From contig JABTTZ010000001.1 of assembly GCA_015075625.1 (NCBI GenBank), positions 1,178,001 to 1,242,000 of the forward strand: a stretch of 64,000 bases of DNA. The letters run 5' to 3'. The DNA is from Anaerolineales bacterium (GTDB taxonomy: Bacteria; Chloroflexota; Anaerolineae; Aggregatilineales; UBA2796). This document shows positions 39,238-41,550 of the stretch, one piece after another. The stretch's first letter is position 1; each line of letters starts with the position of its first letter. A program made the position numbers and the translations under genes. The notes below the pieces were generated by a model, which was not told the origin of the DNA, ran no database searches, and saw only the letters and a list, made by a program, of their open reading frames with translations.

Positions 39238-41550
39238 ATGGCATTGGACTACCTTAATTTTGACCTTCGTTTGGATGATCATCCCCTCGGCGGTTATACG
39301 GTTGCGGTGGTCAATTCCCCCGCTGGTGAAACATCTGGCACATTTGATCTCCAATTTCCCGATCTTGAAAACCTCCTTCTGCGCCTTGAAAATGCGGTGA
39401 TAAAGGGGTCACAACGGGGCGGCGCACGACGGCGACTTTACTCTCCAGAAGAAAAGACCGTGCAAGATTTTGGTCATCAGTTGTTTCAGACATTGTTTCC
39501 CGCCGATATACGAAGTCTCTATGATCAATCGCGTATCCTTGCCCAGAACGAGAGTAAGGGACTTCGCCTTCGCCTGCGGATCAATTCCCCCAAACTGAGC
39601 GCCATGCCATGGGAATTTCTTTACGATCCGCGTGGGGCGGGACGGTACCTGAGTCTTTTCAACGATACACCCCTTATCCGCTATTTAGAAACACCTTACC
39701 CCGTTACCCCTCTCACCATTCCAGCCGGTGAGCCATTACGCATTTTAGGGATGATTGCCGCCCCAACGGATCAAGAGGCATTGGATGTAGACGGGGAACG
39801 CGCCCATATTGAGGACGCCTTATCTGATGTATCGAATGTTGCTCTCACATGGGTCTCTGGGGGGACTGTTCGAGCCCTGACTAACGCCCTTGATGCGGGG
39901 CAATGGCATATCTTTCATTTCATTGGGCATGGGTTGCTCAATACCCGAACAAAGGAGGGCATGATTGCCCTTTGCAACACGCAAGGAAAAACCCATCCGT
40001 TCAGTGCCAGCCAATTGGCAACATTACTTGCGGATCACCAACCCTTGCGCTTTGCCTATTTGAATTCTTGCGAAGGGGCAAAAAGTGACAGTGCTGATTT
40101 GTATTCCAGCACCGCCTCTATTCTTGTGGGGAGCGGTTTGGCGGCAGTGTTGGCAATGCAGTATGAAATTTTTGATGAGGGCGCCAAATGCTTTGCCAAA
40201 CGCTTCTACGAGGCGTTGGCAAACGGCGATCCTGTGGATCAAGCGGCAACTAAGGGGCGTAAGGCAATACGGAGCGAGGCGGGCAGCATCATGGAATGGG
40301 GGACGCCCGTCTTGACGATGCGCAGCCCCGACGGGGTGTTGTTCACGGTGCGTCCCGCCCAGAAACCCGCCCCCTCCCCGCTTGCGGGGAGGGATGAAGA
40401 CCCCGTCGCGTTGTTCAATGAGGCAAGCGCCTGTGTAGAGGGCGAGCGCTACAGCGAGGCAACTGCCCTCTACGAACGGCTTTTGGGGTGGGCACCTCCC
40501 TTCCGTGAGCGGCAGGTACGCGCCCTCTTGAAGCAGGCGGAAGAACTTCTTGCCGAACAAGAGAAGGCACGCGCTGCGCAGAAACGGCTGGAAGAAGCAG
40601 AAGAACGTTTTTCGGACTTGGAAACCTTCGTCCAGCTTGCCCGAACAGAGAGCGCCAAAGCGCACGCCCGCGAGGAGATTCAGCAGTTCTTAGCGGATTA
40701 CCCCGAATACAAGACCGATGCCAACGTCTTGGCGCTGTGGGAGAGGGTGAAACCGCCCCCACCGCCGAAACCCCCCGAACCCGCCCTGGGCACGCGGATG
40801 ACCGACGAGAAAGGGGTAATCATGGTCTACGTCCCGCCGGGGACGTTCCAAATGGGGAGCAGCAATGATGCTGACGAGCGGCCGATCCATTCGGTGACCA
40901 TTGAACGGGGCTTCTGGCTTGACCTGACGCCGGTGACAAACGCCTCCTATGCCCAATTCATCAAGGACGGCGGCTACAAAACGGAAACATACTGGACGCC
41001 CGGCGGCTGGGCATGGCGGAAAACGGCGGACAAGACCGCACCGAGGGACTACGACGACTTCACCGCTCCCCAGCAGCCCCGCGTGGGGGTGACATGGTTC
41101 GAGGCATACGCCTACTGCCAATGGCGGGAAGGTCGCTTGCCCACCGAGGCGGAATGGGAATGGGCAGCGCGGGGAGAAAGGAGTCTCGTTTACCCTTGGG
41201 GAAATGACTTCAAGCGCGATAGCAGCGTGGTGATCTATGGTGAGAATTCTGGCAGAAAAAGCCACCCTGTGGGGGAGGGGATACGGGTGGCGGGGGCGTC
41301 ATGGGTGGGGGCGTTGGACATGAGCGGGAATGTGTGGGAGTGGATAAGCAGCCTCTACACCCCATACCCTTACGACGGCAATGACGGGCGCGAGGCGGAC
41401 ACCGGAGACCGCACGGATGTTCTGCGCGTGCTGCGGGGCGGGTCTTGGGGCGACAGTCAGGACAACGTTCGCGCTGCGAATCGGTTCAGGGTCGACCCTG
41501 CCAACCAGTTCAACCGTTGGGGGTTCCGTCTTGCCCGCTCTTACAGATAG
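39238..41550 (+). CDS. CHAT caspase-like protease fused to an FGE/C-type-lectin-fold domain; candidate DGR target protein
   Basis: A 770-residue protein. Residues ~1-375 form a CHAT peptidase with the catalytic dyad His231 (HFIGHG) and Cys278 (YLNSCEGA) and the characteristic [13 protein letters not shown] end. Residues ~390-520 are TPR/coiled-coil-like ([26 protein letters not shown]), with a Pro-rich hinge ([10 protein letters not shown]). Residues 529-770 are a formylglycine-generating-enzyme/sulfatase-modifying fold ([41 protein letters not shown]...GFRLARSYR). No sulfatase gene is nearby. The C-terminus has the layout of DGR variable proteins. It is probably a hypervariable sensor controlling a protease; that role is inference. 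Confidence 0.88.
   Translation: [770 protein letters not shown]
41431..41550 (+). other. Candidate DGR variable region (VR) at the 3' end of the CHAT-FGE gene
   Basis: Codons 732-770 (LRGGSW to the stop). Sites that are Asn-rich in DGR template-encoded versions of this fold read GGC, GAC, AGT, GAC after SW and TTC, AGG, GTC, GAC and TTC, AAC, CGT further on. Most end in C, as AAC codons would after mutation of their adenines. The framework ([13 protein letters not shown]) is conserved. The matching template repeat is not in the window. Confidence 0.65.

Follow-up and report, generated by a model that had tools for sequence, protein, structure and literature searches.

A CHAT-FGE fusion gene in an Anaerolineales genome as the probable target of a decayed DGR

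We infer that a CHAT-FGE fusion gene at positions 39238-41550 (plus strand) of the 64,000-nucleotide stretch of Anaerolineales DNA analysed here (the window) encodes the variable protein, and thus the target, of a diversity-generating retroelement (DGR) that has lost its working machinery in this genome (probability roughly 0.87). The open reading frame of 770 aa comprises a CHAT caspase-like protease domain (aa 77-354, positions 39466-40299, plus strand; Pfam PF12770, E 6.6e-25), a linker that includes a proline-rich segment, and an FGE/C-type-lectin-fold domain (aa 529-767, positions 40822-41538, plus strand; Pfam FGE-sulfatase, E 2.4e-54), so that the CHAT peptidase joined to a C-terminal FGE fold, which a sequence-only reading had proposed for this gene, is confirmed by Pfam. 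The catalytic dyad, His231 (codon 39928-39930, plus strand) and Cys278 (40069-40071, plus strand), falls on the residues which that reading had named, and both align with the His and Cys of the single close paralogue in the genome (contig C3, 377160-379514), where the dyad is kept. A CRP-family regulator (cNMP-binding and HTH_Crp_2 domains, 38433-39131) ends ~105 bp upstream of the CHAT-FGE gene, and co-regulation of the two is possible. Among 9 relatives, the DNA upstream of orthologues of the gene downstream of the window locus showed no common sequence.

The window and C3 genes share 67% identity overall and 39% amino acid identity in their CHAT parts, and they are nearly identical in DNA across the linker and FGE domain (40412-41537 of the window, plus strand). 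The variable repeat (VR; 41446-41538, plus strand) sits at the 3′ end of the window gene, and its variable stretch, 41449-41538, falls inside the interval 41431-41550 in which variable codons had been expected. Compared with the C3 copy, all 17 of its substitutions fall on C3 adenines and none of the 61 non-A sites differs (P = 3.3e-10); outside the VR, at 40545-41447, 8 of the 31 differences between the genes are at an A in C3. Five codons changed at both of their first two bases between C3 and the window (AAC to GGC, TTC, GTC and TTC; AAT to CGT). Differences confined to A, combined with double-base codon changes, are the pattern of a DGR, and the earlier assignment of the protein to the DGR-type variable proteins is upheld; likewise, a genome search for a template with adenines at the variable positions, suggested with it, recovered the adenine-rich, template-like copy on C3. 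The repeat closes with the VR-type 3′ junction CGCTCT (41536-41541, plus strand), where the C3 copy and several templates read CGACCT; the window gene, with GCCCGCTCTT, is of the VR type (CGCTC) and distinct from template repeats (TRs). Comparison of this one paralogue pair suggests that the window VR was diversified in the past, the C3 copy being identified as the template by its junction and flank.

AlphaFold modelled the FGE domain at pLDDT 94, and the model matched TvpA (Z 26.4) and Mtd (Z about 15), with FGE/EgtB enzymes also among the matches; Pfam, the model and the structure matches alike place the VR on a C-type lectin/FGE fold. FGE enzymes carry an active-site Cys pair in their C-terminal region, with which the C336/C341 mutant entries among the structure matches accord. 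In the window domain the sole Cys is residue 627 and none occurs in 736-770; as the C-terminal pair is absent, a role as a formylglycine-generating enzyme is unlikely judging by the residues present, in line with the earlier doubt on this point.

The remains of a DGR reverse transcriptase (RT) lie directly behind the gene. A spacer (41566-41644, plus strand), in which we read a GC hairpin (41609-41625) with a T-run behind it, precedes a truncated DGR RT (41665-41832, plus strand; HMM E 1.1e-11, model 1-51), which starts 114 bp past the CHAT-FGE stop, and retains N-terminal residues 1-51 (MKTYTNLYPRMLNFNAILRAWRKARRGKRYTHAAVEFEQNLDSELIALNRGCRGG) before a stop codon, with RT similarity extending beyond that stop to about 41850. 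A DGR RT profile built from six intact RTs was run on the whole assembly (4.68 Mb, five contigs, 98.5% complete); it recovered this relic (E 7.8e-11) and a second one, a DGR RT C-terminus at C2:738651-738884 (model 276-353, E 5.8e-16), and otherwise gave only weak matches to a retron XIII and a UG35 RT. The window relic is 48-53% identical to the start of the intact RTs of the class relatives L210, L211 and L222, and the C2 relic reaches 70% identity to the RT of L223. With PF00078 the genome shows two RTs, one retron XIII-like and one UG35/DRT. The retron XIII-like RT (L001:1255-2442, C3:394.3 kb) lies at a distance of 15 kb from the CHAT-FGE gene on C3, has similar RTs in relatives G003 and G010, and was rejected as the mutator, being of retron XIII type with QGAPTSP instead of the IGNLTSQ of the DGR RTs recovered in this analysis. 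The RT at C1:342 kb, a 1000 aa protein (L002:70-3072, C1:340.7-343.7 kb, E 1e-195 to the PADLOC model), was rejected as a DGR RT because it is of UG35/DRT type. With the profile, neither the assembly nor any of 11 genomes of the family yielded an intact DGR RT, and the genome contained no free, separate non-coding TR, its sole template-like copy lying in frame in the C3 CHAT-FGE gene. The sequence-only reading had let its DGR proposal depend on a template or RT somewhere in the genome: a template copy and DGR RT relics do exist, but no intact DGR RT.

Intact DGRs in relatives show what the C3 copy resembles. The C3 stretch and its flank served as the query against 396 genomes of the class, of which 63 matched; 11 of the 14 loci fetched hold a full-length RT matching the DGR profile and a twelfth has a partial RT. 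The cassette order is VR gene, RT, TR in most of them, which agrees with the VR gene and RT relic of the window, and the TR mostly lies ~300-500 bp downstream of the RT; it lies upstream in L212, L213 and L223, so this order, which we take as ancestral, is not universal. The TRs of these intact DGRs are Asn-rich at the same positions as the C3 copy and share with it a ...GFR reading. Behind the repeat, L211, L217, L221 and L222 read CGCTC in the VR and CGACC in the TR, whilst L220 reads CGCTC and CGATT respectively. The C3 3′ junction, CGACCTTG, is of the TR type, unlike the CGCTC of the window gene, and so is the sequence after the repeat, GCCCGACCTTGC. Past the repeat the C3 gene runs on into about 165 bp of a TR-downstream RNA element, and this flank aligns with the TR-downstream elements of L210 (E 2e-13), L211 (E 5e-15), L216 and L217. 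Rfam RT-14 matches the flank over its full length at 26.6 bits, under the gathering score of 48.1, and RT-14-like RNA, again full-length and below that score, is found directly behind the template at L217:5687-5826 (46.3 bits), L216:6220-6360 (45.8 bits) and L211:6795-6932 (37.9 bits). This suggests that the Rfam RT-14 RNA may be the template-downstream part of some DGRs. Because the repeat is Asn-rich, and its junction and downstream element are those of a TR, the end of the C3 gene is most likely a former template, fused in frame.

Further traces of the cassette family occur on C2. The kinase-FGE gene at C2:809 kb retains both cassette ends: the spacer behind it is 94% identical to that of the window, and 250 bp beyond this spacer are 51 bp of the TR-downstream element at 92% identity. 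That the gene is a clean VR made from this template was rejected, since over 88 bp only 9 of its 16 differences fall on A (P 0.018); it is at best an older VR, and it is by its cassette ends that it is identified. A 165-bp interspersed repeat, which occurs at least 40 times in the genome (copies mostly 85-99% identical) and carries a promoter-like TTGACA...TATACT, has one copy inside the kinase-FGE scar (L059:9934-10098, C2:809934-810098) and another beside the C2 RT relic; an Rfam search of the C2 region that contains the repeat gave no credible match. Its presence in these scars recalls the repeats that replace DGR parts in Thiohalocapsa (PMC10907252).

It is scarcely credible that no DGR was involved, and that the window and C3 genes are two ordinary FGE-domain paralogues which diverged through point mutation and selection. 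FGE domains are indeed common in this genome, with 17 matches, many of them without a visible DGR link, but all 17 changes lie at A sites (P 3e-10), and such divergence is contradicted by the RT relic next to the gene, the second relic on C2 and the TR-type flank on C3. The C3 tail could alternatively be a VR into which retrohoming brought template cDNA that was unmutated or unusually long, not a captured TR, since DGR homing swaps the VR for cDNA and an event with few mutations could yield all-Asn codons; this we consider very unlikely, as a TR-type junction and ~165 bp of TR-downstream element are not expected from homing to a VR, and a search of the C3 locus for an RT relic and a VR-type spacer found neither.

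It is also unlikely, if less so, that the window VR still undergoes diversification in trans, driven by an intact DGR that the assembly lacks or that other cells of the population carry. An assembly of five contigs at 98.5% completeness leaves room for a missing cassette, and in Thiohalocapsa PB-PSB1 intact and wrecked DGR loci coexist as structural variants, with some targets that look trans-diversified (PMC10907252). The window VR, moreover, equals the template at every non-A site, so it was last mutagenised recently when set against drift by point mutation. Yet neither this assembly nor any of the 11 genomes of the family holds an intact DGR RT, the genome has no free TR, and no matching TR was found in viral contigs or phages.

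In the preferred reading, of a target that outlived its own DGR, the ancestral cassette would have consisted of the CHAT-FGE gene with its VR, the RT, the TR and the downstream RNA element. As long as this cassette worked, error-prone copying of the TR by the RT would have randomised A-templated codons in the C-terminal end of the FGE fold, and the randomised face would have tuned sensing by the CHAT protease. In the window copy the TR and the RT beyond codon ~51 would presumably then have been deleted, freezing the VR as its last mutagenesis had left it (G738, D739, S740, F750, V752, D753, A755, F758, R760, W761). In the C3 copy the simplest route would be a recombination between VR and TR which deleted the intervening RT, and let a second CHAT-FGE protein end in the unmutated template. 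A ligand bound by the FGE face may activate the caspase-like CHAT protease, the protein presumably acting as a conflict or cell-death sensor. Such a sensor-effector role is reasonable by analogy, because homologous FGE variable proteins of relatives with intact DGRs carry effector domains, namely caspase C14, TIR, NACHT, trypsin-like and kinase domains. Of the programmable sensor-effector that had been envisaged for the gene, the role as sensor and effector is therefore reasonable; that it can still be programmed is not supported, as the assembly has no intact DGR RT and its one template copy is embedded in the C3 gene. The putative sensor is apparently frozen, and in the assembled genome the DGR seems to be dead.

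Objects of this class are already known, as DGR targets with CHAT and FGE/CLec domains, remote targets and degenerate DGR loci have been published, and fusions to CHAT and to orthocaspase occur among the targets (PMC10907252, PMC7517822). Thiohalocapsa PB-PSB1, like the genome here, has FGE/CLec variable proteins fused to conflict effectors including CHAT, degenerate loci and remote targets with RT or TR missing or pseudogenised, and duplicated C-terminal modules on divergent N-termini; it keeps one intact locus per RT class, however, whereas none is left in our assembly, and its DGR parts were replaced by repeats, whereas here the template was captured in a coding frame (PMC10907252). Cyanobacterial DGR targets similarly fuse a C-terminal CLec to orthocaspase, kinase, TIR and CHAT-like domains, and their paralogue all3226 retains remnant TR-VR homology without an RT, much as here; unlike in the cyanobacterial remote variable proteins, RT fragments and TR-downstream RNA persist in our genome, so that the path of decay can be reconstructed (PMC7517822). 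TvpA (Treponema denticola, 2Y3C) and Mtd (Bordetella phage) share the C-type-lectin/FGE fold with its C-terminal VR but have no fused protease domain, unlike the window protein. The window CHAT domain is akin by sequence to those of SAVED-CHAT and the CHAT protein 8TL0, prokaryotic CHAT proteases whose other half is SAVED or another module, where the window protein has a DGR-diversified FGE fold.

To our knowledge, and within a limited literature search, four decayed cassette scars in one genome together with a template fossil in a coding gene are new in detail. These scars of one cassette family, including the template fossil in a protein and the RT stump beside a mutated target, document the end of life of a DGR, and offer a direct test of whether hosts drop the mutator after a good sensor variant, an idea raised for cyanobacteria (PMC7517822). 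One might speculate, though we think it doubtful, that recombination between VR and TR is a recurrent and perhaps selected off-switch of DGRs, which excises the RT, fixes the sensor and leaves a 'germline' all-Asn protein with a job other than that of the diversified copies; a lineage could thus keep its protease and kinase sensors as a fixed set. As predicted from its sequence, a CHAT protease with a formerly diversified putative sensor joins the list of bacterial conflict-type effectors. A plasmid search for the template gave one weak match, an unannotated template-like repeat of 76% identity on a plasmid of Candidatus Chlorohelix allophototropha (Chloroflexota; NZ_CP128403.1:38870-38970). 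At L156:369-1556, a DGR RT frame continues into its TR, the C-terminus of the RT being an all-Asn template.
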